Below are positions 29,401 to 63,236 of a stretch of 64,000 nt of DNA, piece by piece. Where the stretch lies: the NCBI RefSeq assembly GCF_963576615.1, contig NC_088713.1:39263276-39327275 (forward strand), in the 5' to 3' direction. A program made the position numbers and the translations under genes. Origin of the DNA: Watersipora subatra (lineage: Eukaryota > Bryozoa > Gymnolaemata > Cheilostomatida > Watersiporidae). The stretch's first letter is position 1, and the number at the start of each line of letters is the position of its first letter. The notes below the pieces were generated by a model that searched no databases, had not been told where the DNA came from, and worked only from the letters and a program-made list of their open reading frames with translations.

Positions 29401-32400
29401 ATGATCTCTTACAACATTTTATAATAATTGTACACATACTTATTCTCTGTACTTTATTAACACTCCTGACGATCTCTTACAGCACTTTATAATAATTGTA
29501 CATATACTTATTCTCTGTACTTTATTAACACTTTTGATGATCTCTTACAGCACTTTATAATAATTGTACACATACTTATTCTCTGTACTTTAATAACAAT
29601 CCTGATGATCTCTTACAGCACTTTATAATAATTGTACATATACTTATTCTCTGTACTTTATTGACACTCCTGATGATCTCTTACAGCACTTTATAATAAT
29701 TGTACACATACTTATTCTCTCTACTTTATTAACACTCCTGATGATCTCTTACAGCAATTTAGAATAAGTGTACACATACTTATTCTCTGTACTTTATTAA
29801 CACTCTTGATGATCTCTTACTACACTTTATAATAATTGTACACATACTTATTATCTGTACTTTGTTAACACACCTGATGATCTCTTACAGCACTTTATAA
29901 TAATTGTACATATACTTATTCTCTGTACTTTATTAACACCCCTAATGATCTCTTACAGCACTTTATAATAATTGTACATATACTTATTCTCTGTACTTTA
30001 TTAACACTCTTGATGATCTCTTACAGCACTTTATAATAATTGTACATATACTTAATATTTGTACTTTATTAACACTCTTGATGAACTCTTACAGCACTTT
30101 ATAATAATTGTACATATACTTATTATCTGTACTTTAATAACACTCCTGATGATCTCTTACTACACTTTATAATAATTGTACACATACTTATTCTCAGTAC
30201 TTTATAAACACTCCTGATGATCTCTTACAGGACTTTATAATAATTGTACATATACTTATTCTCTATACTTTATTAACACTCCTGATGATCTTTTACAGCA
30301 CTTTATAATAATTGCACATATACTTATTCTCTGTACTTTATTAACCCTACTGATGATCTCTTACAGCATTTTATAATAATTGTACACATACTTATTCTCT
30401 GTACTTTATTAACACTCCTGACGATCTCTTACAGCACTTTATAATAATTGTACATATACTTATTCTCTGTACTTTATTAACACTTTTGATGATCTCTTAC
30501 AGCATTTTATAATAATTGTACATATACTTATTCTCTGTACTTTATTAACACTCTTGATGATCTCTTACAGCATTTTATAATAATTGTACATATACTTATT
30601 CTCAGTACTTTATTAACACTCCTGATGATCTCTTACAGCAATTTAGAATAATTGTACACATACTTATTTTCTGTACTTTATTAACACTCTTGATGATCTC
30701 TTATTACACTTTATAATAATTGTACACATACTTATTATCTGTACTTTGTTAACACACCTGATGAACTCTTACAGCACTTTATAATAATTGTACATATACT
30801 TATTCTCAGTACTTTATTAACACTCTTGATGATCTCTTACAGCAATTTAGAATAATTGTACACATACTTATTCTCTGTACTTCATTAACACTCTTGATGA
30901 TCTCTTACTACACTTTATAATAATTGTACACATACTTATTATCTGTACTTTGTTAACACACCTGATGATCTCTTACAGCACTTTATGATAATTGTACATA
31001 TACTTATTCTCTGTACTTTATTAACACCCCTAATGATCTCTTACAGCACTTTATAATAATTGTACATATACTTATTCTCTGTACTTTATTAACACTCTTG
31101 ATGATCTCTTACTACACTTTATAATAATTGTACACATACTTATTATCTGTACTTTGTTAACACACCTGATGATCTCTTACAACACTTTATAATAATTGTA
31201 CATATACTTATTCTCAGTAGTTTATTAACACTCCTGATGATCTCTTAATACACTTTATAATAATTGTACATATACTTATTCTCTGTACTTTATTAACACT
31301 CCTGATGATCTCTTACAGCACTTTATAATAATTGTACATATACTTATTCTCTGTACTTTATTAACACTCTTGATGATCTCTTACTACACTTTATAATAAT
31401 TGTACATATACTTATTCTCTGTACTTTATTAACACTCCTGATGATCTCTGACAGCACTTTATAATAATTGTACATATACTTATTCTCTGTACTTTATTAA
31501 CACTCTTGATGATTTCTTACAGCACTTTATAATAATTGTACACATACTTATTCTCAGTACTTTATTAACACTCCTGATGATCTCTTACAGCAATTTAGAA
31601 TAATTGTACACATACTTATTCTCTGTACTTTATTAACACTCTTGATGATCTCTTACTACACTTTATAATAATTGTACACATACTTATTCTCTGTATTTTA
31701 TTAACACTCTTGATGGTCTTTTACTACACTTTATAATAATTGTACACATACTTATTCTCTGTACTTTTTTACCACACCTGATGATCTCTTACAGCACTTT
31801 ATAATAATTGTACATATACTTATTCTCAGTACTTTATTAACACTCTTGATGATCTCTTACAGCACTTTATAATAATTGTACATATACTTATTCTCAGTAC
31901 TTTATTAACACTCTTGATGATCTCTGACATCACTTTATAATAATACACATACTTATTCTCAGTACTTTATTAACACTCCTAATGATCTCTTACAGTACTT
32001 TATAATAATTGTACATATACTTATTCTCTGTACTTTATTAACACTCCTGATGATCTCTTACAGCACTTTATAATAATTGTACACATACTTATTCTCTGTA
32101 CTTTATTAAAACTCCTGATGATCTCTTACAGCACTTTATAATAATTGTACATATACTTATTCTCTGTACTTTATTGACACTCCTGATGATCTCTTACAGC
32201 ACTTTATAATAATTGTACACATACTTATTCTCTCTACTGTATTAACACTCCTGATGATCTCTTACAGGACTTTATAATAATTGTACATATACTTATTCTC
32301 TATACTTTATTAACACTCCTGATGATCTCTTACAGCACTTTATAATAATTGTACATATACTTATTCTCTGTACTTTATTAACCCTACTGATGATCTCTTA

Positions 32401-38400: not shown

Positions 38401-41400
38401 TTTTCCACCAATTATTGTAAATCAACTTACCTCATCAGATTTGCTCCAGTCTCCTTCTGAATGGGAAGATGCCGGATACATTTCCTCGTTGTATTCAAAT
38501 TTCGGAGATATATAATCCAGTGAAACAGAGATAATCCAAAGTTCTGAGAGAAGATTATACGTAGATATCCAAATTGTAGAATTAATCCAAACTTTTGTGA
38601 GATATATAATCCAGTTAGGTATAGAAATAGTTCGAAGTTCTGAGAATTTCATGTATAATAACTCCAGGAAAAAAAAAAGTCTCGATAATGGTGAGCCCAT
38701 CAAACTTGGCTGTTTTTATACTAGTCAAGTTCAAGGAGGTGGAACCTGGACAAAAGCTATAAATCACTTCTAATCCATCTTGTCTCACTCAACTTTCGCG
38801 AAAATTGAATTTCGCGAAAGTGAATTTCGCGAAATTAGATTTCGCGAAATTACACAATATATTTATATTATATAGTCAACTTTCGCGAAATTGAATTTCG
38901 CGAAAAGTGAATTTCGCGAAATTGGATTTCGCGAAATTATATATTATATAGTCTACTTTCGCGAAATTGAGTTTAGTGAAAGTGAATTTCGCGAAATTTG
39001 ATTTCGCGAAATTACACATTATATATTATATAGTCAACTTTCGCGAAATTGAATTTCGCGAAAGTGAATTTCGCGAAATTGGATTTCGCGAAATTATACA
39101 TTATATATATTATATAGTCAACTTTCGCGAAATTGAGTTTCGCGAAAGTGAATTTCGCGAAATTGGATTTCGCGAAATTACACATTATATATATTATATA
39201 GTCAACTTTCGCGAAAGTGAATTTCGCGAAATCCAATTTCGCGAAATTACACATATATATTATATAGTCAACTTTCGCGAAATTGAATTTCGCGAAAGTG
39301 AATTTCGCGAAATTGGATTTCGCGAAATTACACATTATATATATTATATAGTCAACTTTCGCGAAATTGAATTTCGCGTTTTTCAATTTCGCGAAAAGTC
39401 TTCTGATATTATGGATGATGCAGCTAAATTTATCAAAACTCATTAATTATTTGATGAGGAGAATTGTATATAACCAGCAGAATTTTACTAAAACGATATC
39501 AATTCTTCATTCAATCTCAGAGAATTATCACACTACACAACTATGGAGGATAATACTCAATCTGGAGTGATAAAACCTGGATCGAATAGTTCAGTGAAGA
39601 TGTCGAAAAAGAAAATTTCACCTGTAACTCTTTCTAACAGGACTCCTCCAACGAAGAAGAAGACATCCGACCAAATCGTAACGAATTTGGAGCAAAGGGC
39701 AAAAGATATGGCAGACAAGTTAAGAACATTAAGTAAGGATACTTTAATGGAAGCAAAATCACTGCAGAAAATGACAGACCTTTCAGTAGGATTGATTATG
39801 GAGGTGACAAAAACGGAAGAAGCTCATTCGATCCATGGAGCGTGCTGTATCATTCACTTTAACTATGTGGAAAATGGGATTAGTAAATCTACTGCTGTAT
39901 TTGCTCCAAAACGATTTTTAGATGAATCGCTGTCTTATCCAAGTATTATGGTATATCTTGGATTAAAACCTAAGAGTAATGGACAGGGAAGTTACCATGA
40001 CTTAAGACGAGTAACAGAAGGAACCTCAACTCCCTTGGAAATGAAACGCACTCTAGCCAATCTGAGAACGAAGAGACTTGAAAAACTTATACAACTTTTC
40101 GAGAGTCGTCATCTCAAGGAGTTCAAAGCTCCATCTATTTTCTACTATCACAATGTTGGAACAAGTGAATACAAAGATGCTGAAGGCAAGGTGAATGTGG
40201 TACCAACTGTAGCATTTTCAACCAAAGTTGATGGAGAGGAAGTTCAAGGAACTTTAACGATGCCTTCGAGATATGCCCTTTCGTTGAAAGAAAATTATCC
40301 GGGTATCATTATATACAAGGGACTAGTAACATCTCACAATACTCGCGAATACTACGATGTAGTAGTCATGGGATATGAAGAAGCAAGCAGTTTTTACGAG
40401 AGTTCACAATGCAAAAAGGAATCTGCTATCATAGATATTTCCAATGACGATGAGTGAATGATAAACAACTCGATACAAACTTCGTTATAAAGATTGTACA
40501 TGAACATTTTCTCATATATATATTCAATGTTTCATTTATACTATATTATCTTTATTGTGTCCTATCTACTTGAACATTTTCATATATTTCAAGTTAAACA
40601 TAAACTATTTTATTTTTATTGAAACAAAATGATGTTGGAAATAATGAATAATACATATAAATATATCTTTTAAAGTGAATAATTTTGTAATAAAACTGAT
40701 CTTTCATTCAACATATTAATTTCTCCAACAAATTTCAATCTTACATACAAAAAAATACAAAAAAAAAACCGAAAATAAATTCCTTAAAATTCTTAACCAT
40801 TCAAGAGCTTCAACATTACAAAATCATCAAATCTTCAAAAAATAACTTTGTACATAAACACTTTCTCATATATATTCAATGTTTCAAATATATAACAATC
40901 TCCGGAAAATCAACCCCTCGGTGTCCCAGATATTAACCCCCTCACTCATCCGGTAATCTCTCGCTCTCCTCGATAATCCGCGAGATCCACTCCGGAAAAC
41001 CAACCAACCCTCGATGTCCCAGATATTCACCCCCCACTAATCCACCGATAATCCGCGACGATTCGGCCGACTAATCCGCAACGATTCCCCCGACTAATCC
41101 CGCGATAATCCACGTTTAATCGGATGACTCATCCCCCACTAATCGGATGACTCATCCACAGATAATCCGCCGATTACGCCGGGAGCGGATCCATACCCCC
41201 TCGAATTCAACCCCCTACTCTACACCACAATTTCCCCCCAAACCCCAACATCTCATTCAACTCCACCCAATTCAATCTACACCCCTAGCCAATTTAATTC
41301 GCAACCCCCTTTTTCTACCCCCCTGCTGGATCCGTCACTTTTTTGTGTAGATCTGCTCTCTACATACTACTAACGATAGAGCGAGAATGGTCAGGGACTG

Positions 41401-44579: not shown

Positions 44580-44701
44580 TTAATCAGGGGGAGGAGGGTT
44601 GTATCCAGGGAACAAGAAAAGCTTTTTCCGAAGATGTTCGATCATAGTTGGATTCTGACCTCTTCCATGCCAATGCTTCGATTTCTTACTTTCCTTTTAA
44701 T
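44580..44701 (-). CDS. Terminal exon: caspase p10 end, apparent frameshift
   Basis: After acceptor GATACAATAG the phase-0 frame reads IKRKVRNRSIGMEEVRIQL and hits TGA at about 44,643-44,645. A different frame immediately takes over as TMIEHLRKKLFLFPGY and ends NPPPPD, TAA at 44,580-44,582, which is a typical caspase C-terminus. One missing base near 44,645-44,650 would reconcile them. An alternative acceptor giving only the second frame is possible but would drop conserved residues. Confidence 0.65.
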
Positions 44702-47700
44702 CTATTGTATCAGAAAACAGTGTCAGCAAGTAAACATTAGTAACAGTTTAACGAATATGAAGTATTTATATTATATAAAAAAGGGCCTAATTATTTACAA
44801 TTGTTGTAAAGGCAAATTGAACACTGCACCTATAATCACTTTTCATAATATAAAAACTGCTTACGATCACCCAAACATGACAAAACCTTGGGTGTACAAA
44901 CACTTAGAACATTTGTTTTGACATGTAAAAAAAAAGTCCACTAACAAAGTTTGAAGCTTTCTGAAGCAGCTCAAACAAGTCGATGCAAGACCACATTTCT
45001 CATTCATATAGCTTGATTCTATGTTGCTCTGAGAGTATTTAAAATTGACACACATTTGCTTCCTTTCCAAGTCTGTCTTGAATCATAAAAAGGAATTATC
45101 TAAAATAAACTGGTAGATGTCTTTCTCAAAATCTTTGGCTAAATTATTTAATATTTATTACAAGAAAGGGCTCTTTCAATTTTTTTATTTAAGTATATGA
45201 CAGAATGCCAAAAAAATTCTAGCTAGAAATATAGTGCATTGTAAGTATTTACTTATTTCTACATGCATCTAAACTCTTGAAGTTATACCCTTAATATAAC
45301 TTTCGGTGATGATCAGTTACTGGAGGCAGTAACTACTCTATTTAAGACTAACGAAATAATCCAATAAAGCGTTTTATTGTGTGTTGAACTTGCTTATTAT
45401 AAGGTATTTGCTAATCTTATGAGCAAACACTGTTAATTAGCATTATCAAACACTTTAGCATAAAAACATTAAAACGTTTATTAAGATCTCACACCACTGC
45501 TTTCACAAATGCATTCCTATGGTTGCTCTTATCTGGTATCAAATGATATTATGGTATCGGCAGACCCGACCCAGTTGGAGTATTGTGGATCTTGGTGAAA
45601 CCCAATCTAAGCAAAGCGACAGTAACTATCCAAAAATTGTGAAGAGTATAGATGAGCATAAGAGTCATTGAGAAATTATTGGATGAGATAACCTTCTCAT
45701 GTCTAATTTTGACTGTTTTTTGGCTCATATTGGTACTTTTGTACTTTCATAAACAAATAAACCTGTAAATAACTAATATAAACACAAAAGACCTTCATCA
45801 AACGCATCTACATAAAATATTAACCGTATTACCTTTAACGAACAGCGCTAACAAAGAGATTTTAATTGCAAAATTTAGCACAGCCTACTATCAAATTTCC
45901 GCTCTGATTCATTCCTGCATATAAACTATAACAATTGTGATGTGCGTAAATACGTTGTCAATAAACTAGCACTCGATTCCAAAATAAAAAAAAATTAGTT
46001 AAAACATGTAGCTATTATTATAAGCACTGGGTGTGTTCAGCTCTTACCTGTTTGTCAAAGAGAGTCTTGAGATCTCGATGGCAGGCATGTTTAGAAAGGG
46101 ACTCAACAACAGCATTAATAAACCAGGAACCGTATTGGGTATGTCTATGCGCCACGTGACCTGTCAGAGTTTAAATGTATAACTAGTTATGTTGGATGAT
46201 TAAAATCATGCTTAAGCTAAAAATGTACTGAATATTAACAATGTTCACCCTTAAATGTCTTCTTGAGTACAGTGGTCCGGTTATTAAAATATGCAATGAA
46301 ATATATTGATGTCCATCAATATTATGAATTATTTGCTTGAATTTGAAAATTATTAAGTTTACCAGGAAAACTGGCTTGCCAGATTATCAGGTCATCGGTG
46401 TCTAAGACTGCAGGAGACATGGGCATAAGCATTGGGGCAGAGACTGTGTTTGGCTCTGGAGGTGTTGTCAGGGTTGTGGATGAGCTAGAAGGAAATCCAA
46501 TGGTAGGTGAATTTGTAACTGATGACAGGGGAAAACTTGGATGAAGTGATGAAGTGGAAGGTTGAGGGTCAGTCACCACTCTATCGGGCAGGACTACAAT
46601 AAAAAGGAATTCATAATCTTTACCTTGAACATGTTAAAAATATTGTAGATTGAGGTTTAATCATTGATTGTAGGTTCACTAAAATTAGTAACCAATAACC
46701 AGGAAAGATAGACTAGAAATAATATGCCTTACAATATATAAGATTAACAGTGCTTAGCTGGTCAAACGCATATTAATGGAAATTATGTTTACTTTTGATG
46801 TGCAAAAGAAATGTAAGATGGAGTTCTAGTTATAAATAGCTTCAAGAAATATGTAACTCACCTCCAGTGCATGCCTGAATGATAAGTAATTTTGGTTTTC
46901 CGGCCATTGCTCGAAAGTTCTGAGCGTATAAAGCGTTATTGATTTCTGTTCTCTGCACCGTCGTTCCATCAGTTCCGGATATGCCTGTTTCAGAACCATG
47001 ACTAAGGATGACCAACACAAACATCCCATAGTTTGCATGCTCAGGCCTTCTTGTCTCATTTCTGATCACTTCCAACATGCGCTGTAAGGCAACCATTAGA
47101 AGTTCTCAATTAAAAAATTGGGTTGAATAATTGTATTTACAAATATATTTGTGACACCAATACTAAATCAAAACATTGTTGTGTTTAATTTCTAAATTCC
47201 AGTGAAATGTTGGAAGTGGTTTGCAGCAATATCTCAGAAAAATATCAACTATTTTACACTGTGGTAATCTTTAACAAAATTGGTTGTATTTTATTTACGT
47301 TGCTACCATACTCAGCCTTGGTTGGGGTTTCATTCATTTTAATCAAATAGCCAACAGCACACAGCCTACGGACTGCTGTGTGTTGATTTGCAATGCAAGT
47401 TTCTAGAATGTCTTCATAACAAAATTCCAAGAACGTGCTTATAGATGGCAGAGGTCCCTAATGCATGTGGCTGGTGAGTTTGAGATGCTGGTGCCCAGGA
47501 ACCAGGTAGAGTTTTGAAATCAGATAATTTTGTTGAACTGACGAAAAACACGTTACAAATGCGTGTTGAGTTGGAATAAATTAAGCTAAAATATGCAGAA
47601 TCATAGCAGTTGCAGTCAGCAAAGTGTTGTTGTGGTTTTACAAAATTATTCTTGATAAACTTGATAACAGTAAAACTACAATACAGAGAATTAACTACAG

Positions 47701-50700
47701 CATCATTTCTATCAACATTTAAGTTTGATAAAAACTATTTGTCCACAGCAACCCATGAATTTAATTAACAGACGCTAAGTTTCACGTTCAAACTTTACAA
47801 AAATATACAAAATGTTGCTACATGTACATGTACCTGTTTTCAGGCCTTCAATGAACACATTGGTATGCTGCCTAAGTACTATGACTGTAAGTTATCAAAT
47901 GTAAATATTAAATGATTACGCTAGTTATCTCCTATTTCAGACTGCACTCTGTTAACGCGTATATTATACATGTAACTCAATCTGCAATACACTGATTTCT
48001 ACTAAAGTTGTCACAAATTACATACCATTCAAAATATTAAACATAAAAATGTGCCACTTGGTTATCAAAAACACAATACATGGCTGTATGTAAATTGTTT
48101 AATCATTTAGAAAAACAGATTTTTAACTATGAAAGAAAAGCAAAAAAATTACAAAAGTGCACCAGCAGTCGATAGCAAGTGCTAGCGCTTCTAATTCCTC
48201 GCTGCTACAATAGTATTTATTAATACACACACACACACATACATGTACACATGTTCAAGCACACAAACACACACAAACATGAGCACGCACAAATGCGCTC
48301 ACTCACACAAATGCAAGCTTGCGAATGGCACAAGAAATACACACAAACTCACAAACACATGAACACACTAACATCTGTACCGCTGCGCACACTGCACTAA
48401 CACAAGCACCAATACTAGCACTAACGCATGCACTAACTTGAGCACTAGTACTCTAATACACACAAACATAATAGCAATGTGAAAATTTTTAACATAAATT
48501 ACATCACATGCAGTAACATTAAAATGGTTATAGCTCATTTGAGATATCACAGCATTAAAAGGCTGTGATATCCTAATAGTTAAAACATGCAAAAACGAAA
48601 GTTCAAATGTAATATTCAGTTTTTACCAACCCAAATTTTTAAATATCAGAGCTTATTTATCGAGTTTAAATAAAGTTTTCAATAATAAATTTCTCTCGAA
48701 CTATAGTTAAAATAATGAAAGCAGATTTCACTACAAACCTGACCAGAAAGATTTTCCTCCCTAAAGCAACAAAATCCAAGTTTATCAAAAAGACACAAGA
48801 TCCTCTGACCATCTCGAGTAGAACCTTGTCTGTCATCTGAATGTGTGAAATTTATGTTGTTAATAAGAAGGCAGTGTCCTCTTATCGTGCTCATTCTGTA
48901 CACCTGTGTTAACAAAAGGTACAAATAATGACTTAGTTCAGTTCATATAAACTTGGTTACAGCTAATACTAACTACATGGAATGACCTTTACATTGCTTA
49001 GCACGCATTTAACTAGTTACTATTAAACTATTTATTAATCTACAGGCTAAAAAGGACTCACCTCATCTGAGTAAAAGAGATCTTTGACATAAGACTTAGA
49101 GCATGGTTTAACAGTCAGTTCCTCAGAAGCCTGGTCTGAAGTATCAGAGAGCTCACTGTCACTTGACTCTTCATCTTGTTGTGGTTGAACAGCATTTGTA
49201 AGCCTTTCTGGTTGTTGTAGAACAGGTACCACATCCTGCTCTGCGGCTGTAAAATTAGATGCTAGTCATAAAATTATAAAATTATGCACTATGTTGTCAT
49301 GATGTTCTGTTTATAAAATACTAGTTGAACAAAGTATCAAACTACAATAAAAGCATTCTCATAGAACTTACCGACAACAATAAACTATTTACTGCAATGC
49401 TATATTATATATTTTCGCAGCCAGCACAACATATTGTAATGACTTAGTTAGGACTTTTAGATATTTAAAATAATTTAAAGCTGTCTAAATCATATTCAGT
49501 TTTATTGCAAGCAGTTATTTAAATAACGAGAAATTAAAAACAGATACGAACTAACGTAAAATGCTGGAAAAGTAGGTTACGTTATTATACTGACGTATCA
49601 TTTTTTTAACATTACTGTTATTTTCTTACTTTTAAAAGGGATTGTTGGCTAGCCATAATAAATCATTAACAATTATCTACTATTTATTATTGAAATATTC
49701 AAACTTTCAGGATTTAGTAGTCAGTATACAGAAAATTAGTAAAATGCATGGCAATTCCTTGATAGTCAATCTCGCATAGTGTTTCAGAGTTTAGACTACT
49801 CATTTCGAGATTTACTTAGCCTCAATTTAAGTCGTTGGTTTGCTATAATTAAAGAAAAATACTGTTTAAATTGCAGATCAGCGACCAAGTCTTATTAGAG
49901 CTGTAAAATATATGTTAGAATATTATGGCAAAAACTTTTTTAAAAGCCATGTGTACCTGTGGGTGCAACAGAGAGAGTGTCTAGATAGTCTCGTATGGTA
50001 CGCTTCTTCTCTTCATCAAGCTGATGACCTACATATAGATCAATAAATCATTAATGAGGCACAACAAATCTTTTAGTAGAGAATAAACCACTTCAGTAAA
50101 TTGCATTTGATGACATTATAACTTACAAGGTCTCATAAGGGCTGATGGCACAGTCGGCCTTTCACTTCCAGTTTGCTCCGCATACTTATAACAAGTCAGC
50201 TTCTCGACTCCCGAATATCGTTTTACTGCGAGTGCTTTACCTTCTGGACAGAACCAATCTGGATCAACAAAATCTTCTGGGTTCGGATCTTTCAAAAATA
50301 GGCAATGACCACAGAAAATGTGAATATATGGTTCACTTGCGATCCAAGCAGTTGAAAGCAGCTTCAATATGCTATTAGTTGCGTTTTCAAGCTGTTTCCA
50401 GATATCTCCAAAATGAGGTTCATCAGAACCAGCTTGCAGAGTAACTTTCTGACCACGGACATCATGTACCAAATTCAGTTGCAACTCATCATGATAAATC
50501 ACAGCACCATTTTTAGCAATCTTCTGTGTGTTTATGTCATTTGAAAGCATGTTCAGCACAGCAACTGTCATTAGTTGGAACCCATAGTTGGGGAGTGGAA
50601 GTCCTCTCAACTGTATGTGTAACTGAAGCTGAAACCTTGTCTCTTCTCCTCGAAGCTTTTCGATGCTTTTTGGTGCAAAATAAGGTATTGCGTAACCATA

Positions 50701-53700
50701 TTTTTGCTTTTGAGCGTTCAACACTATGGGACCTTGTACAATCCAAAAACTTTTCAACAACTCAATGGCGATGTCAGGTTGAAAGTCTGCTTCAAGTTTA
50801 AGAAGATGGTGCAATAGTGCCTCATCAAGGATCCCATTCCGGGTGAAGTTTTTAACAAACTGTTTATATAAAGCAAAACTGATGGATTTTCTTTTAAAAT
50901 CAAATTCACGAAAGTTCTGTGCTCTTTCTTTCCAAAGACGGTCTGACTGATGATGAAAGAGAATTGAAATCATTTTAGTCATCGCTGTGATGTCACGGAA
51001 TATGTAACCTTTTAAAGACTCTACTGACTGAAGCCAAAGAATATCACCTATGTTATGCATGTAACTCAAAATATGCAACGACCTATCTCCAGGAAAGCTA
51101 GCCAGGACATCTGAAACAGTGACTACAGGTTTTGTCAAACTCTTTTCAATAAAGGTGCACATACGATTCCATTTCTGTGGTAAAGAAACCTTGTACTTCA
51201 TGCAACGAAAATCAAGAGCTTTTCTGAGATCTTCTATTTGATGTGACTCTTTGCCAAACACAAATGTGTTCTGTTCATTAAACACCTCAGCTCCCTTGTT
51301 GGATAAAAACTTGATTTTATGGAGAACCTGTTTTTTCGCTCTACTCGGCAGTTGCTCAGCATCCAGCATCTTATCTCGAAGTTGCTTAGAATGATTGAAC
51401 AGACAATCTTTGTAAGTCTGTAGCTCCGAATCTGAAACTTTATCAGAGTGAGTGAGAACTAAAAGTGGAGACTCTACTAACAATGGACATGCAAGATAAA
51501 TGTGAGCCAACCACTGCCAGCAGAGTTCTTCAGTTGCTGCTTCTTTTCCTTTTTCTTTGGCCAGAGATTTAAATGCATTCAAGTTAACCACGATCAACGG
51601 AATGTTGCGTTCCTTAAGAATGTACCGATAAGTAATATGATAGACTTCGTGACCCCCGTGATCAATCATCTTGGCATATGAATGGTCTAGCTGTACTCCT
51701 TCTATTTGAAATACTCTGGTTGTTTCATCTAGCATGGTGGTCTCAAACCGGTTTGTGAGTACACGGCTTTTTGATTGCAGAGATCTAATGAGGCTTGTTT
51801 TCCCCGACATTGAATGGCCAACTACCGAAACTGGAACAATCGTCAATTCAACTTGTTGTTCTGATGTAAGGTCTTCAAAATATGATTTAATTGCTGTTAT
51901 ACCTTGCTGACAAACACCATAAGAAGGAGAAACTAGACTGAAGCAGCCAATGCATTTAAGGCCGATGAGATGTTTGAGATTCAAAATCTTCTCATCTATC
52001 GTTGTCAGGTTTTGGTTGTTACGGATGTCCAGTGTACGCAAGTTCTTCATTTTGAATACACAAGATGGAATTTCTGATAGCTTGTTGTCATTGCAGTTTG
52101 ACTGTTCTGACTGATTCTGAAGATGCAGCCTGCAATCAGGCAAAAATATATGAAAATGATGAGCATTCTTTACCTCAATCTGACTGTAGAAAGTTGTAGC
52201 TCGTTCATCAAACAGAAATGATTCAATGTTATAAGTGTAATTTGAAGTATAGTAATTCAATTGTATCTGATGAGATTTTTATATCATCCTTGTCTTTTCA
52301 ATACAAAGAAACTAAGGTTTATTTTGATCAACAGCAATTAATACCAAATTTATGCAGTAATTCCTTTAGAGAGATATTGCTCAACTCTTTCTCTACCGCA
52401 AGCTAATGTATCGGCTCGGGCTACGTTCTCATTGCAGCCGGAAGCCGATGCATCAGCTTTTAGACAGTGTGTTTGTTTATTTATAATTACTCAGCCTTTG
52501 CTTCAGATATGACAATTAGATTGGGTCTCCATTAAAACAAGGTTGTTGCTATTGATATATACTAATTAGCAGGACTCTCACTAGCGGCCCACTAATTATC
52601 AAACAGAAAGTTCGCTCGGTCCCGTGAAGTTTGAGTTATCCATGTTTGACTGTATTTACAAATCAAAACGTTCAATGGTACTTAATTTGTCAAAATATGT
52701 TACAGAGCTAAAAACCACATGGTCTTTTAGTTGACCAATGCAAATTATTACCATACTGCATGCATGAGTATTTCAAATGAGCACAGTTTCTCCATATTAT
52801 ATCTCACAGAGTAGTCCAACTGGTTTAATTGGATGTAGTGAGTAGCTTATGACACTAACCCTTAATATCTTAGACGTGATTAAAGTTAATTTTTTATGGT
52901 TAAACTTTTCACAAAGTCGGATTTCATCCAAAAGATTAAGCTTTTCATCCCAATGTTCTTCATTCCAATGTTCTAGTATAACTGTAGAAAATTATGACAT
53001 TATTATAATAATATAATATATATCATGATATATAAATAGTGTACATAATATATTTCATTATATATATATATGATATTATATATAATTATAATATTCATAT
53101 TATATATAATATAAACTATGATATTATGATATGAACCTTAAGATGAAATGCAACTTTTTTCCATAAGAATCTGCAAGTAGATTTACGGATGACAATTCGG
53201 CTATTACACAATCTTGTGCGTTTGAACAGCATTTGAATAGGTGACCAATCGGATGAATTGAATGAATAATCAAATGAAACCTACAGTTATTAGAAAAAAC
53301 AATGAGGGTCCTTGTTGAATGAATCAAGTTCATTAGCAAATTATTTGCTGTGTACACCAGCGAAACCGTGTCACAATGGTTTGTTTGTTACGTTTAGAAT
53401 CACCATCTATATAGTGATTGTTGACGATTTAGTTTCCGTAACCGCTGCGGTTTTTGAGATTTTAGCTGTTAGTTATGGATAAATTTCTACTTAATAATTT
53501 GGAGTGAAATATATTTTCGTAAACTTACTACTAGCTTGATTTGACTAATTCACAAAACAGCACTTAAAGCTGATTACAGATAAAAACCTAAATTAGCAGC
53601 AGGAACATGATGGTAACAAACCAGTAAATGTCAGTAAACATTATAAAATGAACAATTATTACAACCAATCAATGCTATCACGTTTCAGAAAAATATTTAT

Positions 53701-56700
53701 GAACTAAGTTTTTATCAGTTTATCTTCAAAAAATATCAATGCATTTGCTATTTGTTAGCTATTTTATTTGTTCCAAAAAACCACGCAAACAAACATGAAT
53801 ATTTTCTCCCAATTTAAATTGCAAAACTGGAGTCTCATAACTCGCTGATATTCCTGATAATTTTTTATTATTTGACTAGAACAAAACTAACTCACTCTCT
53901 GTTAGAACCAGCCGTAGTTAATGCCAATTAAATATTACAACAGTGCTTCTAAAATGTTGTTGAAGAAAACTAAAATTTGCAAAACTCAGCTTAAATTTTT
54001 TATGATGCTTTTTTAACTGCTCGGCGGTCTTTTGAACAAATTAACAACAAATTGACAGAATCGATGAGCTTTCAGTAAAGTTCTTTCAAATAGGAGCAAC
54101 AGCTTTTTGAAAAAGTGAAGTTTCTTTGTTGAATAAAACTAACCTATTAGCAAACATGTTCTCGGTACCAGCCAAACCATGTCTAGGTCGCAACAGATTT
54201 TTGCTTTTGTAAAGAATCATCATCTACATTTATTAGTGACGATTTCGTTTCAGTCACCGCTGTGGTTTAGTACACCAACTAACGTTATTTGCTAGTTAAA
54301 ACTAATTTTTCTATAGGATATATAAAACACCAGACTACATTATTGTCTGCCTGTTTTTATTAAAATAGACTGTATGTACTCTTTCTACAGATTGGATTTT
54401 TCTACCCAACAAAAAGTCCTTAAAAGGTGATGGCAGATGAAATCTTACAATTATCTTAGCAATTATAATAAACAAAATCAAGCACAATATCTTTACATTT
54501 TAATAACTTGCACAACTGATTAAATTTGCTATTCCACCAAATTGATTTAACCTGATTTTCGAAAATTTGATATACCGCTGGTATTTATGCAATATTTCAA
54601 AATTTAATGCAGATATTGTTTCAGTGTAAAATTCAACTTACAGTAATATATCCTTGTTATATACAAGTGAAGTACAGAATAGTTTAGTGAATCTTATTCT
54701 CGCAAAATTTGTGGCTCTTCATTTGCATTCACTATGAATGTGGTGAATTTCTTTTTGCCCTGATGGTAACGATCTAAACTTTTTTTTTGAAAAATAAGTA
54801 AAAATGGAACTGCCTAACAAAAGCTTTTAATTTACTTGAACTGAAAGACAACAAGGTTGTTTCATTGAAAACTAAATTTGAATGGTCTAGCTAGTGCGTC
54901 GGCTTTATAATGAAACAAAAGTGAAACCCAATTTATTAGCCAATTCATTTGCTGGTGGTCTGTACTTATACTATCGCATATGCCAATAGTGATTCGCATG
55001 GTAGCGAAATAGTTAACAAACAAAACAATGGTAGTGAACAAACACCAAACACCAACGACAGCCGCTGCTGTAGTTTTTTACAGCAACTGACTAGTTGCTA
55101 GGTATAGCTAAATCTTCTATGTATAGTATTCAAAGCAGAAGGTGAGATTCTTATGTTTTCGTTCTAACTAAAATAAACTACTCACACAATTTTTTAAAGT
55201 TCGACTTTTCTCACCCACAAAAATGAAATTAAAAAGTGTTGACAGATGAGAACTTAGAACTATCAGCAGAAACATGTTTGTAACAAATAAGTAAAGGTCA
55301 GTAAGTATTATAAATTTAACAACAATCTTTAGAAACATTTAACCACTAATATGAGGACAGCTAGCTGCATTATCAGTCTATAGATGTCACTCACCATACA
55401 GTTTGATAAACTAGTCTAGGCTCCTCGGGAAACTCCCAATTATCTGATAGACCCATTGTTGAATACTCCCCGTTGGAGAGGTCAAGATATTCTAGTTTAG
55501 TAAGCTCTGAAAGGCTACAATGCAAAAATAAGGGCAAACACTAAGACATCTAAAAACTACCAAAACAGTGGAGCCCGTTTATTGTTGAATGCAAAAGTAG
55601 CAATAAACTGCATTCTACACCAACTAGATTTATATCAGTTCGTTTACCAAAATTAAACTTTCTGCTTCAAACAATATCAATGGCTTTCATATTTTCTCGC
55701 TGTTCCATTTGTTTTAACAAAGCACACACACACATAAACATGACTGCTTTCTCATGGTTTTACATGCAGAAACTGGAGTTATATAGCTCACTAATGTTAC
55801 CGTTATTTTCTTTAGATACTCTGAGTGTAAAAAAACTAAAAACTTTCTGTGAAAACCTGAAGCGGTTATTGACAGCTCACTATTGTGAAAATTTTTCTAA
55901 AGCGATGTTGATTAGGAACAAAAAATCTTTGCAAAAACTCAGCTGAGTTTTTCATGATACTTTTTAGTCACCAAGTTATTATCACAAACATAACAAATGA
56001 TGGAGAAGTGTCTACCATCCATACCTACATTTAATGTTATATAAACAAAGGTTACTGCGTACCCTGTAAGTTCTTGTTGGTCAGACTAGCTATTGATATC
56101 TGAAAATATTATTACTGATTTTAATTATAGGCATGGGAGTGGATTTAATTGAGAAATAATGCTAATATTTAATATAAATTTTTGCCAAAAATAACAAAAA
56201 AATATCTTATACAGTAGTTTACCATTGTATTAAATCTTTCACTACTGAGCTAAATTCGCTATTCCACAAAATTAATTTAAACTGATTTTCGAAAATTTGA
56301 TATACCGCTGGTTTTTATGCAATATCTCAAAAATCAACGCAGAGAATGTTTTACTTTAAAACACATTTTACTTAGGACAAAACCTTCTACTAGAAAGTAT
56401 AAAATAGTTTAGTGAGTCTTACTCTCGAAACTTTCTGGCGCTTCCTTTGCATTGAACGAATGTGGCAAATTAATTTTTGCCATGATGGCAGCGACCTGAT
56501 TTTCCCATTTTGATAAATAAGTACAATGGAATTTTTTAGCAAAATGACTTTCTATTGGTAGAACCTGACTGACAACAAATGGGAGATTTATGGGAGACCA
56601 AATTTGATTAATCTAGCTAATGCGTAGGCTTCGTAATGAAAAAGTGAAAGCCTATTCATGGGCTGATACTCTGTATTTTTATTATCACGATTCCAGATAA

Positions 56701-59700
56701 TTTGGCACACGGTAGCAAAAGAGCTAACTGAATATTTTATAATTGGGTTGTTATTTAGGCACATTAATGAATTGTAAAAATTCTGCTCATAATAGTTACA
56801 CAATGTAACGAATGTCATTAAATTTTTAATGAAGAGATGCATTTGTGAACATTATTTTTTTGTGGTGAATAAATCATTGTCAAATACCTTCGCAGTTCTT
56901 AAAAATAAATTTTTGCTACCACCATGTTTCAAGTACTTCAAAACTTCTATTTGAGCATTCCCTTTATTTGAACACCACCTCTATTTAAACACCACTGTAA
57001 GCAAAGGTTTGAAAAATACAACACACATATTTAATTAAACGCTATTTTTAATAAAATGCCAATATAATAAATAAATAACAAGTCCCCGAAATATACAATT
57101 TTTAAAACTAGAGAAATAATATAACATATAACTGAATGACAATCCTATAAAACTTAATAGGAAAACATGTTTTATAAGAAAATTTCGGGGTTTAATAGTG
57201 TGCTGCATAGTATACGCCATAGTCAACAGCTCCGTAAAATAATGTCCCCAAAATATACAACTTAGTTCTTTGACTAAATGTTCTATTAATAGCAAGCGTT
57301 CAGTCTTAGATAAGTGGTGTGAGAAAAAACTGTTAGATTGAGTAAATACAAAATCAATGAAACTAACTGCACCTACAGTATAAATAAATATGATTTTATT
57401 AAAATTTCACATAAAAATAGGGCTGCAAAACAGTATTTACAATACAATTAACATAATGTTAAAAGGTTTTAGCAAATTTTATGAGCATGTATAACATAGG
57501 GTTAAAAAGATATAGAGTAAACTGACAACTAGAGACCTATGACCTAACTTAATTTGTCAGAAACTGTTAGAGCAGACAAAAATTAACTTTGGCTTTACCT
57601 CTTTTACGTATTGCAGTACAAAACACATGTGAACATAAAACAAACACTTTCACTCTAAACTTAAGGTCACACAGTTAGTTAAACTGGTCTAGTAAGAAGT
57701 AATGGGTAGATGATGCTAGCGACCAAGATCTTATATATGTTTGCATTTCACTATTTATTGTTTACATTTTTGGTTTCTCATAAAGTCTGAATTCATCAGA
57801 CAATTTTAAGTTTCTTACTAACACTTTAGAGCATCTGCATAACATTGAGTCACTTTTCTTTCTTAGTAGAAATGCAAAAACTTTTCATCACAAAACTCCA
57901 TTAGATTTATGTTTGACAATTCAACTATTGCATCATCACTTACATCTTCGATGTTGTTTCGGGAAAAGTTAGCAATTTTTTTGTCTCACTGATTTTATAT
58001 CGGTAATTTTTTTTCAAACAATAATCTAATTTCACAAAAAAATAAATTTTTTTCCTCAATGAAACACGTTTGTTAGCAATCTATTTTGGGTTCCAGCAAA
58101 CCATGACCCAACAAATTTTTCTATTTTTACATAGTAATCGTCTATAGCACATGTGTCAAACTCACGGCTTGCTGGTCACATCCGGCTCGCCTTGTAATCT
58201 TATCTGGCCCGCAAAATAATTTTACATTATTGCTATCCATGGCCCATTGAAAAGAAGCGCTGATAGGCCCATATTCCCTGACGCGGCTGGGCGGCTGAGC
58301 CGCCCCAACTTTTTAATGATTTTCGGCGGCCAACTACTAAGAATTGCAGTCTAAGCGCATTCACTTGGAATTTCCAACAAATAGCAACTAACTATAGCTA
58401 GTCCATCGCAACTAGCAACGAGGTTGAGAGGCTCACTAATCTAGTATTAGTTTCGCCTGCCACTAATCCAGTGACTGATCCTTTTCTGCATTGAAGCGAA
58501 TCAAAACGTTGATGAGGAGCACCATGTGGCAGACTGTCTAAATATTCTTCTAATATTATACATACATGTATATAAAGCTGTTGAAATAGATACAGAATCA
58601 GTTGTAAAATATTTCTGCCATGGACACATTGACAGAACAAGAGCTATTGCAATAAAGAGGTGATAGCTCTTGTTCTTTCAATGTCCCTCACAGAAATATG
58701 TAGTGTCCTGAGTTTTATATCATACATTGAATAAAGAAAAAGTTTCGCTTACCATGGACCATAAACAATATATTTATGTAGATTTTGATGCTTACAATTG
58801 ATTGCATTCATGCATACATGGAGGGTTGTTATTGATTAAAATGTCTATAGCAGTTAGCCTGATGAGCGCTGCGGTCTAATATGAGAATCTCCACTCCACA
58901 GAACATTACACAGAATGTGAATAAATTTGTTGTTTCGGTCAGATCATATAATCAGATCATAGTCATAAGAGCAAATAAAATTGAATGATTTAAATTGTTA
59001 TTGCTGAACAGCACACATTTTATGCATATTTCCATGTTTTTTAGTGTGTTCATATTTCTAACTTGTATAATTTTGATAGGAGATATTTTTAAGATATGTA
59101 AGTTTATTTTTTATATACATTAACATAGGAGCAAAGAAATTTGAATTTTTTGAACAAGATCTCTTTATGAAAAATAAAAAATAAATAGAAGAAGTTTAAA
59201 TGTTGACTTGCAACAAAATTCAAATTACAGTTACTCAGGATCAAAAGATTCACCATGTCTTACTCTGTTGTGTTGTAGGTTCAAAATATGGGGAAATGTG
59301 ATTACAAGCTCTTAAAAGCTCAAAAACGAACAGCTGATCGCAGCTATCTTGAAAACGGCTATCTCTCTCAAAACGGCTCAAATGTGACGCAGTCTAACGC
59401 AATGTGTTTCTGTTTACGTGTTAAGGCAACCTCATTCGTCCAAATATTTTCACAAATATACTTCATGTATTCAATGAAAACATGTTTAGTGTCCTTACAC
59501 GTATATTCCATTATCATTGTAACGCTGTTACCTTGAGCACAGATATCTTAAACCCTAGAATATAAACCAGTTTTATTTTTTAACCTTAGCTCAAAGGGAT
59601 GCATATCATCCTCTGATAAACATGAGGAGCTTGTTGGTTACATGTGATAGTCGACAAATGCTGCAGAAGTTGTTCGCACCATATAGCGGGAAATATGGGT

Positions 59701-62700
59701 CACATGATCAGATTACGACTAGATGATTAGATCGAGCGGAATTAAAACTTTTAAGTAGTGAGCATCTATACTTGATACAGGCTTTTTGGTTGAGCCTGAA
59801 ATGTTTGTCGTAAACTAGTGCTACGAGATGTTTTCTATGGAGCCTTTAATTGGCATTTGATTTCCCGTGATAACATTATACGTGTCAAAACAATAACCCT
59901 TTAGAGTTGAACATATTGTCAAAATATGGGATTCCAACCTACAACCACTTTTTAACTGTTCATTTTTGACCTTTTAAGAGCTTGTAATCACATTTCCACA
60001 TTTTTGCACCTACAACACAGCAGAGTAAGACAAGGTAAATCTTAAGATGCCAAATAACTGTAATATAATTTTTGTTGCAAGTCAGCCTTTACGGTTTAAG
60101 TTTGTTTCAGAATAATATTCCTGTCGGTTTTTATTCGTATTTATGTAAAAACATTTAGTTTTCTTGTGTTAATTAAATGTTTATCCTGTTTGGCCTACGA
60201 CCTAAAGTATGTTTTAAATGTTGCCCCCTTTTACAATTGAGTTTGACACCCCTGGTCTATAGTGATCAGATATATTTTTTCAACAGCTTCTGTGGTTTTG
60301 TATTCGAACTTATTATAGCCGCTAGTAACATTCAAACTTTTTATGTGGCTCTTGTAAAATCAAGCCCCATCACTTTGCGATGATTTCGGAATAAATATAT
60401 TTTTATACCCCTCTTTCTGGCTGGATTTTGGTAAAATCACGAAACAGAGCTAACAAAGTTTCCTTTAAAAAAGAACTTGAGAATTTAGCCGCAGAAACAT
60501 GTTTTAACAAAGCAGTGAAACTCAGTAAGCATAATATTGTGAAAACTGACTACTACTCATTTTACTCAAGCTATCCTATTCGGGTCAGCTTTGAGAAGCT
60601 GTAAATCATAAATGAGGACAAAAACTTAGAACTATGGAACATTCCAGGAAACAGTTTGGTACCAAAACCACCAAACAAATCTGGTAGTCCTCCAAAAAGG
60701 TTATTGCCAGAGAGTTTAAGCTCTTTTATTCGAGTCAACTTTGAAAAGCTATAAATCGCAAATAGGGACAAAAAACTAAAAATGTTGAACCCCAATGAAA
60801 GCAGTTTGACATGGTACATCAATTGCTGGATCCTAAAAGTAGCATTAAATTATGATTCACTCAAACAAGTATATAAATGTATGTAAAGATAGATTTGAAA
60901 TGTTATAAGTATCTTAATGCATATTCTCATAGTTTTCAATTTTTACAAAAAGGTGTATTAGAATTTAGCACCAGATGAGTATTTTCAAAGAAATAGTAAT
61001 ATTAACATATAACCTTTAGCCATTCAATAATAAATCTCTTCTGCAAATTAGAGAAAATTGTATTAAACATCGCAGTAGTGAAGACAAAGACAAAATGCAA
61101 ATTCAACTAAATTAATTTACTGAAAAGGAAATGTTATGAATACAGTATAGCAAATAAGGAAGGTCGCAATGCTTGATTTGTTTGACAAATTTAAAAACAT
61201 ACCATGAAAACAGTGCAAAATAGATGATTGATGGAAAAAAAATCGATGAGTAAAGTAAGTGAAGTCCATATAAATAAATTAAACTGACAAAAAAATGATC
61301 TACTTTGGATTATTAGTTAAGGTCTTAAATTATAACAAACTGTAAAATTTTTAATTGATTCATTCTTTAAAGTTATTGTTGCAGAGAGCGACCAAGCATC
61401 AAATATAATTTTGTTTCAGTAACCACTGTGATTTTGCACACGATTTGACTAAAGTTGCTAGATATAGTAGAGTTTATATTAAACACTCGTAACATTGAGC
61501 TCAGAACTCTGAGTGAAATATGTTTTTATACACTTCTTCCAAGCGCAAGTTTAGTGATTCGCAAAACAGCCCTTACAAAGGTTTCCATCAATTAAGACCT
61601 TGAAAAGTGGAGAGCCGAGACATTTTCATAAAAAAAAACGCAAAAGTCGGTAAGCATAATGTAAAGCACTCTGACGACAACTATATTTCAGAGGAATAAT
61701 TATATTAACATAAAACCACCAACACATCTGGTACTCAAGCAAAAAAAATTATCTCCAGAAAGATTAAGCTTTTTTAATCGAGTCAACTTTGAGAAAAATT
61801 AGCTTGCAACTGCAAAGATTCAGCTTTCTTAAACTACCAAGATCACCAAACACATCTGGTAGTCCACGAGAAAAGTTATTTCCAGAAAAGCCAAGCTCTT
61901 CTAGTTGAGTCAACTTTGAGAAGCTGTGAATCATATAAAAGGACAAAACTAAGAAACATTGAATCCTCCTGGGAACAGTTTGACGTGATGATTGTTGGAT
62001 CCGATGACCCTTTTCAGAGGAACTATTACATTAACATAAAACCACCAACACATCTAATACTCAAAATATTCTCTAAAAAGATTAAGCTCTTTTCTTCGAG
62101 TCAAATTTGAGAAGCTGTGAATCACCAATAAGGACAAAAACTAGGAAATATTGAACCGTCCTGGGAGCAGTTTGGTGTGATGATTGTTTGATCCCAATAG
62201 TAGAGACGATTTGTTCTTTGCTCAAACAAGTCTATATATAAAAAGACAAATTCAAAAAATGTTGAGTATCTCAATACATATTATCACAAATTGTAATTTT
62301 TACAAAAAGGTTAATTGGGAGTTAGGACCATATGAGTATTTTCAAAGAAATAATAATATTAACACATAACATTTAGCCATTCAATAACAAATATCTTCTG
62401 CAATTGTAAAGAACAATTTATAAAACATTGCAGTAGTAAATATGAATACAAAATGCAAATTCACCTAAATCCAATTACTGATAAGGAATTGTTGTAAATA
62501 CAATATAACAAATAGTGAATGTCGCAGCGCTTGACTTGTTTGACAAATTTAATAACATACCACAAAAACAGTGCAATAAAGATGGTTGATAGAAAAAATC
62601 AATGGGTGAAAAATGTAAATTCCAAATAAAAAGATTAAACTGACAAAAAAAACCTACCTTGAATTATTAATGGAAGTCTTAAATTATAACAAACCGAAAA

Positions 62701-63236
62701 GTTTCTAATCGATTCGTTCTTTAAAGTTGTTGTTGCAAAGGGCGACCAGGCATCAAAGATAATTTGGTTTCAGTAACCACTGTGTTTTTGCACACAATTT
62801 GACTGTAGTTGCTAGACATAGAAGAATTTCTTTTAAACACTCGTATCACTGAGCTCTGAACTATTAGTGAAATATATTTGTATACACTTCTTACAAGCAC
62901 AATTTCAGTAATTCACAAAACAGCCCTTACAAAGGATTCCATCAATTACGACCTTGAAAAGTTGGCATCCGAAACAATTTCATAAAAAAGCAGCAAAAGT
63001 CGGTAAGCGTAATGTAAAGCACTCTGACGACAAATCTTTTTAACAATTTATAGAATGATAGCTAGAAGCATTAACAGTCTGTAAATGTTACTCACCTTTC
63101 TGGTAGAGATGGTAGCTCGCAACTCTCAAGGATCAGCATTTTTAAGTTACCAAGATCACCAAACACATCTGGTAGTCCGCTAGAAAAGCTATTTTCAGAA
63201 AGTTCAAGCTCTTCTAGTCGAGTCAACTTTGAGAAG
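44580..63236 (-). CDS. LRR-Roc-COR-caspase fusion gene (5' end outside window)
   Basis: Ten exons on the minus strand: 63,096-63,236; 55,395-55,514; 50,127-52,129; 49,957-50,028; 49,062-49,246; 48,739-48,903; 46,862-47,081; 46,363-46,593; 46,048-46,160; 44,580-44,701. Nine have GT-AG borders on every edge inside the window and join in compatible phases (2,2,1,1,0,0,1,1,0). The product (about 1,120 aa here) has leucine-rich repeats, a Roc GTPase (P-loop GHSMSGKT, switch DHGGHE, THSDK), COR, a Cys/His-rich patch, an acidic Ser-rich linker and a caspase with p20 (SHG, QACTG) and p10 (GSWF). Known family facts: Roc-COR proteins are dimeric GTPase switches and caspases are Asp-specific proteases activated by dimerisation. 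Inference: the GTPase module senses or dimerises and activates the attached protease in the cytosol. The N-terminus lies beyond 64,000. An apparent frameshift affects the last exon. Confidence 0.85.
46048..46160 (-). CDS. Exon: caspase p10 core
   Basis: Reads HVAHRHTQYGSWFINAVVES and ends KTLFDKQ. The Arg before the GSWF motif is the second S1-pocket Arg (equivalent to the Arg of the YSWRN motif in other caspases). Donor ACAG/GTAAGA, phase 0. Confidence 0.92.
46363..46593 (-). CDS. Exon: caspase inter-subunit linker and p10 start
   Basis: A long Ser/Thr/Pro-rich linker (VLPDRVVTDPQPSTSS...) followed by AVLDTDDLIIWQASFPG, the first p10 strand. The linker has several Asp residues where processing could occur. 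It is unusually long for a caspase p20-p10 linker. Confidence 0.85.
46862..47081 (-). CDS. Exon: caspase p20, catalytic part
   Basis: Contains FVLVILSHGSETG with the catalytic His, GTDG, and AGKPKLLIIQACTG with the catalytic Cys. Typical caspases read QAC(R/Q)G; here the fourth residue is Thr. Acceptor TTGCCTTACAG, donor GGAG/GTGAGT. Confidence 0.93.
48224..48365. repeat. CA-rich microsatellite in a caspase-gene intron
   Basis: Interrupted (CA)n and ACACAAA/ATGAGCAC words inside the intron between the two p20 exons; the neighbouring 48,395-48,440 has an imperfect 'cactaa' repeat. Confidence 0.7.
48739..48903 (-). CDS. Exon: caspase p20, N-terminal part
   Basis: Reads VYRMSTIRGHCLLINNINF, then STRDGQRILCLFDKLGF and REENLSGQ. 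This is the first beta strand of a caspase, the S1-pocket Arg in (S/T)RDG, and the helix and strand to LTG-type residues. Phase 0 at both edges. Confidence 0.9.
49062..49246 (-). CDS. Exon: acidic Ser-rich linker (62 aa)
   Basis: Gln/Pro-rich then acidic, with DEESSDSELSDTSDQASEE, ending YVKDLFYSDE. Intrinsic disorder is likely. DTSD and SELSD are the kind of tetrapeptides caspases cut, so self-release of the protease here is conceivable. Donor GATGAG/GTGAGT. Confidence 0.75.
49957..50028 (-). CDS. Exon: linker (24 aa)
   Basis: Between acceptor ATATGTAG and donor CACAG/GTACAC. It reads HQLDEEKKRTIRDYLDTLSV and is probably helical. Phase 1 on both sides matches its neighbours. Confidence 0.7.
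50127..52129 (-). CDS. Exon: last LRRs, Roc GTPase, COR (667 aa)
   Basis: Starts after acceptor CTGATTGCAG at 52,130. It encodes the last LRRs (NKLSEIPSCVFKMKNLRTLD), then GVCQQGITAIKSYFEDL, a typical lead into Roc domains. Roc motifs: P-loop GHSMSGKTS at 51,796-51,819, DHGGHE for switch II and THSDKV for base recognition. COR follows, with a characteristic HILSYMHNIGDILWL stretch and a winged-helix-like region. Near the C-terminus HIFCGHCLFL and WFCPEG give a Cys/His-rich patch that may bind zinc. Donor ACCTT/GTAAGT. Frame is intact over 2 kb. The upstream continuation of the ORF to 52,260 is intronic. Confidence 0.92.
52611..52652. mobile_element. End of a TA-inserting MITE
   Basis: The sequence 'cggtcccgtgaagtttgag' followed by 'ttatccatgtttgactgta' matches the terminus near 42,904. 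It lies in the intron between the Roc-COR exon and the exon at 55,395. Confidence 0.35.
52985..53125. repeat. AT-rich low-complexity tract
   Basis: Interrupted (TA)n and 'atataatat' words inside the LRR-side intron. Confidence 0.7.
53370..58139. repeat. Old copies of an intronic module
   Basis: A phrase of the form 'gacgattt.gtttc.gt.accgctg.ggttt' recurs near 53,430, 54,240, 61,415 and 62,765, and 'gaaaatttgatataccgctgg' recurs at 54,560 and 56,290. These introns were therefore built by repeated duplication of one LRR-exon plus intron unit. A stretch at 57,880-57,990 reads on the minus strand as an LRR-like ELSNINLMEF segment related to 53,160-53,230 (ELSSVNLLAD); neither has proper splice borders and both look decayed. 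Confidence 0.45.
55395..55514 (-). CDS. Exon: LRR module (40 aa)
   Basis: Reads LSELTKLEYLDLSN, then a less regular stretch ending EEPRLVYQTVW across the junction. Phase 2 at both edges. Joined to the previous exon it continues LPSLPES/LSELTKL in LRR register. Acceptor GCATTGTAG, donor TATG/GTGAGT. Confidence 0.8.
58148..60254. mobile_element. hAT-type non-autonomous element (2.1 kb)
   Basis: Ends CACATGTGTCAAACTC and GAGTTTGACACCCCTG are inverted repeats of the widespread CAGGGGTGTCAAACTC type of hAT elements (recognised from memory). They are flanked by a perfect 8-bp duplication, GTCTATAG at 58,140-58,147 and 60,255-60,262. No transposase ORF is visible. It is inserted in the intron between the LRR exons at 55,395 and 63,096. 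Confidence 0.8.
59190..60105. repeat. Inverted repeat nested in the hAT element
   Basis: About 110-140 bases at the left (59,190-59,335, including 'gtcttactctgttgtgttgtaggt' and 'gtgattacaagctcttaaaa') are repeated inverted at 59,960-60,105. This forms a potential long hairpin, either a foldback insertion or inner arms of the hAT element. The 82-codon ORF at 59,288 begins in the left arm and has no support. Confidence 0.65.
60640..60760 (-). pseudogene. Decayed LRR exon copy
   Basis: After an acceptor-like AG it reads FSKLTRIKELKLSGNNLFGGLPDLFGG, then diverges with no donor. A further fragment (FSKLTRIG, then stop) lies at 60,571-60,600. Confidence 0.65.
61764..61925 (-). pseudogene. Decayed LRR exon copy
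   Basis: Reads FSKLTQLEELGFSGNNFSRG, then LPDVFGDLGSLRKLNLCSCKL, very close to the live exon at 63,096, but it lacks the donor and is fused to part of another copy, ending in TAA. Confidence 0.7.
62040..62165 (-). pseudogene. Decayed LRR exon fragment
   Basis: On the minus strand, after 'gattcacag', the sequence 'cttctcaaatttgactcga' begins an LRR exon but the frame is lost within about 20 codons. Confidence 0.5.
63096..63236 (-). CDS. Exon: LRR module (47 aa)
   Basis: Reads FSKLTRLEELELSENSF, then GLPDVFGDLGNLKMLIL and SCELPSLPE. This is two leucine-rich repeats of the 'L-x-x-L-x-L-S-x-N-x-F' style. Both edges are phase 2, so the exon is symmetric and can be duplicated or skipped without shifting frame. 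Acceptor GATTTACAG, donor AAAG/GTGAGT. It is the only complete member of a set of related exons nearby. Confidence 0.8.

Follow-up and report, generated by a model that had tools for sequence, protein, structure and literature searches.

A repeated LRR-Roc-COR-caspase gene architecture predicted in the genome of the bryozoan Watersipora subatra

Gene structure at the locus

We analyzed a 64,000-nucleotide stretch of the genome of the bryozoan Watersipora subatra (contig C6:39263276-39327275, hereafter the window), the minus strand of which carries a gene predicted to encode leucine-rich repeats (LRRs), a Roc GTPase, a COR domain and a caspase (Table 1). The genome as searched comprised 784 Mb in 239 contigs; the published genome note reports 783.70 Mb and 11 chromosomal molecules (PMC12902671). 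Exons A-H, which we rebuilt independently, form a single open frame of 1033 amino acids with its stop at 44580. All eight have AG/GT borders and compatible phases, exon H being bounded by an AG and then by the stop. Together with two LRR exons that also belong to P0003, the NCBI model at this locus (1087 amino acids), they bear out the ten minus-strand exons in compatible phases that an initial annotation of the window had described. The protein search returned W. subatra models as the nearest proteins to the joined chain. Upstream, the gene reaches beyond the window, to about C6:39339215, with more LRR cassettes, among which the design of the cassette exon at 63096..63236 recurs.

Table 1. 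Exons and LRR-like stretches of the LRR-Roc-COR-caspase locus, in window coordinates
Feature	Position	Strand	Evidence
LRR cassette exon of 141 nt with two LRRs (by eye)	63096..63236	-	AG/GT borders by eye; P0003 residues 304-350, 98%
Relic LRR cassette without GTRAG donor, outside the gene model	61764..62030	-	LRR_1 26.4 bits, above cut-off
Degenerate LRR-like stretch, probable relic	60571..60849	-	LRR_1 19.1 bits, below cut-off
LRR-type exon, 120 nt	55395..55514	-	Borders by eye; P0003 residues 351-391, identical
Exon A: last LRR, Roc GTPase (P-loop GHSMSGKT, DHGG, THSD), COR	50127..52129	-	100% to P0003
Exon B: linker after COR; P0003 reads through its donor	49957..50028	-	
Exon C: acidic Ser/Asp linker (SDSELSDT) leading into the caspase	49062..49246	-	Aligned in paralogues
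Exon D: first part of caspase p20 (RGHCLLINNINF, RQGS)	48739..48903	-	PF00656 alone 24.5 bits, above cut-off
Exon E: caspase catalytic exon (LSHG, QACTG)	46862..47081	-	PF00656 alone 52.5 bits
Exon F: Ser/Thr/Pro-rich p20-p10 linker and p10 start	46363..46593	-	Rebuilt chain; paralogue alignment
Exon G: caspase p10 (AHRHTQYGSWFI)	46048..46160	-	Aligned to CED-3 p10
Exon H: p10 C-terminus (KKLFLFPGYNPPPPD stop)	44580..44693	-	In frame only with downstream acceptor

Domain content of the joined chain

The caspase had been described as complete, with both p20 and p10, and the Pfam search agrees: the joined chain matches Peptidase_C14 (PF00656) at 135 bits (cut-off 21.4) over positions 1-233 of the 233 in the model, although the C-terminal strand hinges on the choice of the exon H acceptor. 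The catalytic His (LSHG) and Cys (QACTG, of the QACxG type) of p20 align to those of CED-3, and p10 is present with its GSWFI region and C-terminal strand. CED-3 is also the best PDB match of this part (5.5e-24), with aligned Arg positions that we take to be those with a role in the S1 pocket.

The three GTPase motifs stand in exon A, but neither domain reaches its Pfam cut-off in this copy: Roc scores 23.7 bits (cut-off 27), and no COR match was obtained in the joined chain. The Roc of paralogue P0010 does exceed the cut-off (28.2 bits), and on the close paralogue P0001 a fold matching CtRoco and LRRK2 places COR directly after Roc. The joined chain, without its part beyond the window, has no CARD, DED, NACHT or NB-ARC match in Pfam at E up to 1, and no WD40, ankyrin or death domain match. 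The longer fused paralogues P0005, P0010, P0013, P0045 and P0046 likewise have no CARD or DED at E up to 0.01 and no NACHT or NB-ARC. NCBIfam matches were discarded, one being a generic small_GTP and those of LRR type falling far below their cut-offs.

Fusion across the gene family

The junction running from COR through exons B and C into p20 is spliced in NCBI models of paralogues, including P0005, P0010, P0011, P0012 and P0013. The protein searches returned 31 W. subatra models, of which 18 contain PF00656, a share that is not an unbiased estimate because the queries contained the caspase part. Among these 18, the HG and QACxG motifs are both present in all but P0044, and the P-loop and QACxG occur together in 12, while several others start inside Roc or COR.

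The pairing of the two halves was then examined in the genome. The best 66 of 223 candidate places found with exon A are all open frames of at least 660 amino acids without stops, and the genome search with PF00656 gave 158 matches among 494 candidates, 150 of them listed. Among the matches listed, at least 55 of the 66 Roc-COR places are followed on their own strand by a caspase within 15 kb; even at 20 kb, none is preceded by one on that strand or flanked by one on the opposite strand. For the 11 misses, tblastn over the 10 kb downstream recovered caspase exons in eight (L015, L016, L017, L019, L020, L021, L022 and L023; the search covered the downstream side of these copies). Therefore, 63 of the 66 copies are paired with a caspase.

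The donor of exon A splits the same Cys codon at 15 of 15 sites (the window and 13 fetched loci). Exon D starts in phase 0, and exon E closes in phase 1, in each of the 11 copies in which the respective exon was found, leaving out one spurious motif match in L016. The exon A identity to the window's copy is 38-41% in the fetched copies on C2, C3, C7 and C9. The identities of the Roc-COR and caspase halves correlate (r 0.86, 16 proteins, 0 of 5000 permutations), and the trees of both halves differ only in where P0022 and P0046 fall and in the branching order inside the window's clade. In the catalytic exon, the ratio of nonsynonymous to synonymous substitution rates (dN/dS) is 0.12-0.16 among four C2/C3 copies. 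Thus LRR-Roc-COR-caspase is, as predicted from these sequences, a repeated and spliced single-chain architecture of the family. Three other explanations were rejected: an assembly chimera, given that the pairing is seen again at dozens of places; chance adjacency, given the 0 of 66 in three control positions among the matches listed; and bacterial contamination, given a spliced gene on a 66.5-Mb contig.

Several results weigh against this reading. The remaining 13 of the 31 related models have no caspase Pfam match, and three of the 66 copies (L013, L014 and L018) have no caspase within about 10 kb, only exon B being found downstream, in one case together with a further Roc-COR copy. In five young C9 copies the dN/dS of exon E is 0.4-1.1, with few changes. 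Sibling L029 has a stop within p10, exon H was not found in the stretch fetched for sibling L028, and in L020 (C9:16495100-16505099, positions 1655-1879) ESSSG replaces QACSG. The caspase of L020 is predicted to be catalytically dead in an otherwise similar gene, and model P0046, an LRR-COR-caspase without an intact P-loop motif, is a possible switchless member. Single copies thus do decay.

Family size and genomic layout

A second query, the Roc-COR of P0023, gave the best 76 of 181 candidate places, 74 of them without stops. United, the two protein queries define at least 129 places, or at least 137 with eight more from the genome search with the Roc family PF08477, which served for orientation and for these extra copies. 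Among the matches listed, at least 35 of the 63 new places have a caspase downstream on the same strand and none upstream or on the opposite strand; this pairing uses 43 of the 150 listed caspase places. Overall, a caspase is paired in at least 98 of the 129 places (90 among the matches listed and 8 by tblastn). P0023's own place (C8:6077367, 100% identity) was scored as a miss, though its NCBI model has a caspase.

The copies are grouped on C2, C3, C4, C6, C8, C9 and C10. A dense group at C9:13.0-19.2 Mb holds 37 scored Roc-COR copies, many of them 0.7-1.2 kb from a caspase exon. Judging by its sequences, this group is a young tandem expansion, with the high catalytic-exon dN/dS noted among the five copies compared.

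One chain or two at this locus

The initial annotation read the locus as one polypeptide. This reading is strongly supported for the gene family, and moderately for the window's own copy, whose NCBI model stops before the caspase. In support of an intact gene here, the joined frame has no internal stop and its P-loop, His and Cys motifs are intact. Comparison with L010 gives exon A a dN/dS of 0.31; comparison with L028 gives 0.33 for exons C-G and 0.13 for the catalytic exon E, for which L029 gives 0.10. The catalytic exon of this copy is under purifying selection.

Other observations on this copy point the other way. P0003 is 100% identical through exon B, reads through its donor to a stop and ends in GTHGF, without a caspase. 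Exon H keeps the frame only with an acceptor ending attaaaag, 8 nt beyond that of the family; the family-type acceptor yields a shifted frame and an early stop, and the exon is one base shorter than in L029. Finally, in the trees, the caspase half lies on a longer branch than the Roc-COR half. The copy may therefore be a truncated or decaying member. That the frameshift in its last exon reduces its product to a truncated decoy, or abolishes it, is possible if somewhat doubtful: the exon H acceptor, the longer branch and the decay seen in siblings, one having a stop and one lacking the catalytic Cys, speak for it, whereas the uninterrupted frame, the intact motifs and the low dN/dS of exon E speak against it.

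It is unlikely, to our judgment, that the Roc-COR gene of this locus ends after exon B, with the caspase exons a separate or alternatively used unit; the single chain would then be true of the family but not here, or be one isoform. The ending of P0003 comes close to the break after COR that would make two adjacent genes of the locus, and the 13 NCBI models without a caspase match are in line with it. However, the exon B donor and exon C acceptor are present with fitting phases, models of paralogues splice across this junction, purifying selection acts on the catalytic exon as on Roc-COR, and in 63 of 66 copies the caspase half follows the Roc-COR half on a single strand.

Relatives and earlier descriptions

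In protein searches that scored about 8000 candidates each, caspase-bearing matches covering Roc or COR came from W. subatra only, which does not imply absence elsewhere; two nematode CARD-caspases matched 28% of the query. Roc-COR open reading frames from other sources (P0014-P0016, P0018, P0019, P0028, P0032, P0034 and P0037-P0041) show that the NCBI set does not hold all relatives; no caspase Pfam match was found in them, on contigs of 2-7 kb. Two of these frames, P0040 and P0041, are about 30% identical and end at or run past the same Pro-Cys border, hinting that the same exon layout may exist outside the NCBI set.

Searches of full texts in the open-licence PMC library found no description of an animal Roc-COR-caspase protein, in keeping with the initial annotation, which knew of none. 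There, the terms "Roc-COR" and "caspase domain" were found together only in an article on prokaryotic conflict systems (PMC7159879). NCBI automatic models already contain the fusion, without naming it. Within this literature and the sequence searches, the architecture is new both as a Roco group and as a caspase prodomain.

Comparison with known systems

NLR-caspase inflammasomes and Apaf-1 combine a sensor, a nucleotide switch and a caspase through separate proteins joined by death folds, the switch being a STAND ATPase. The W. subatra proteins share this sensor-switch-caspase logic, but in a predicted single chain without a NACHT or NB-ARC match. With CED-3 and caspase-9, -2, -3 and -7 they have in common p20 and p10 with the His, QACxG and aligned Arg positions; they differ in that LRR-Roc-COR occupies the position of the prodomain, where no CARD or DED was found.

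Roco proteins have been divided into three groups, namely LRR-Roc-COR alone, those with a kinase, and DAPK1, and caspases are not mentioned in the passages of the review consulted (PMC6337361). Proteins of the MFHAS1/MASL1 type (group 1) share with the W. subatra chain the LRR-Roc-COR order and the Roc-COR fold, and 19 of the 31 W. subatra models are annotated by NCBI as MFHAS1 homologue or MFHAS1-like. Group 1 proteins consist of LRR, Roc and COR only and end after COR (PMC6337361), whereas the joined chain adds a linker and a full caspase, in many copies; P0003 stops before the caspase. Unlike LRRK1 and LRRK2 (group 2) and DAPK1 (group 3), the joined chain has a caspase, not a kinase, as its catalytic domain, and no match to WD40, ankyrin or death domains.

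The nearest prior art is found in amphioxus, where LRR-caspase and TNFR-caspase hybrids have been proposed to link recognition directly to death (PMC2575513). As in W. subatra, a sensor is fused directly to an animal caspase, but no Roc or COR appears in the main text of that article as far as consulted. In brown algae, LRR-ROCO candidate immune receptors form an expanded family with LRRs on separate, shuffling exons, as in W. subatra (PMC11378527). The algal exons hold one LRR each and the family is mostly dispersed (in the one species discussed), whereas in W. subatra the exons hold two and the family is clustered; the word caspase does not occur in the algal article. Elsewhere, ROCO is joined with TIR in Aplysia (PMC9334734), and Roco as well as caspase-like domains serve in prokaryotic conflict systems, where the passages concerned do not show the two fused (PMC7159879).

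Proposed mechanism and function

We favor, with some confidence, the view that the gene belongs to a large, expanding W. subatra LRR-Roc-COR-caspase family in which, as one reading, ligand sensing would lead to caspase pairing and cell death. Initiator-type caspases are activated by pairing. Under the proposed mechanism, the LRR array of cassette exons would sense a microbial or non-self ligand, the binding of which would free the LRR from the Roc-COR core and alter the state of that core in nucleotide and oligomerization. The caspase domains at the C-terminus would be brought together and activated by proximity, as in initiator caspases; self-cleavage at Asp in the long p20-p10 linker, and perhaps also in the SDSELSDT linker, would release the protease and cause the death of the affected cell, and a separate death-fold adaptor would not be needed.

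The initial annotation had proposed GTP-dependent dimerization as the trigger. Without nucleotide, CtRoco forms a compact dimer in which the LRR folds back onto Roc-COR; with GTP, the LRR opens by a large rotation and the protein becomes a monomer (PMC11052575). This behavior of a bacterial homologue argues against a straightforward GTP-driven pairing of caspases, and the direction may therefore be the reverse. For human MASL1, GTP binding alters complex formation and loss of GTP raises toxicity (PMC3995007). Taking these proteins together, the most economical view is that ligand and nucleotide would decide whether two caspase domains meet, with self-cleavage in the long linkers to follow. It also counts against the scheme that we infer the ligand, the GTPase cycle and the proteolysis of the family from sequence.

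Given the architecture, the copy number and the modular LRR exons, an immune or cell-death receptor without an adaptor, as first suggested, is plausible, and the gene has the look of a receptor for immunity or self-recognition carrying its own executioner. We infer a role in defence, allorecognition or zooid turnover. Bryozoans undergo programmed zooid removal and test for fusion between colonies. In a colonial animal, a large, variable family whose LRR exons are modular would suit self/non-self recognition or zooid turnover (feeding-body regression) in place of antimicrobial defence; such a restriction seems improbable, however, as antimicrobial defence fits the same anatomy. That the caspase domains are mostly non-catalytic regulators, like about 70% of the effector-position caspases in one prokaryotic conflict system (PMC7159879), is highly unlikely: the ESSSG of L020 would fit it, but HG and QACxG are kept in 17 of 18 caspase-bearing models and exon E is under strong purifying selection in the C2/C3 and C6 copies compared.

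The chances appear even that the family is an animal counterpart of the plant resistance-gene repertoire, with more than 100 clustered receptors evolving by birth and death, each uniting shuffled LRRs, a Roco switch and a caspase in one polypeptide, and that it forms a fourth Roco group for pathogen or self/non-self recognition. If so, a Roco GTPase (a switch of the LRRK2 type, the output logic of which is debated) would be coupled directly to a protease with a simple readout, and would offer a natural reporter of how Roc-COR states control an attached enzyme. Roco proteins would then have expanded in an animal lineage as single-chain death receptors, in place of NLRs or alongside them, and plant, algal, prokaryotic and animal immune repertoires could be compared more widely.

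Other features of the window

A satellite array at 23000-38100 consists of 222 copies of a 68-bp unit (92% match) with a strong G/C strand skew; the scan began at 23000, and the array may start before that position. A short array at 38789-39396 has units rich in TTTCGCGAAA with periods of 84, 150 and 234. Between the arrays and the caspase exons, a 321-amino-acid open frame without a Pfam match at E up to 1 lies on the plus strand at 39492-40457.
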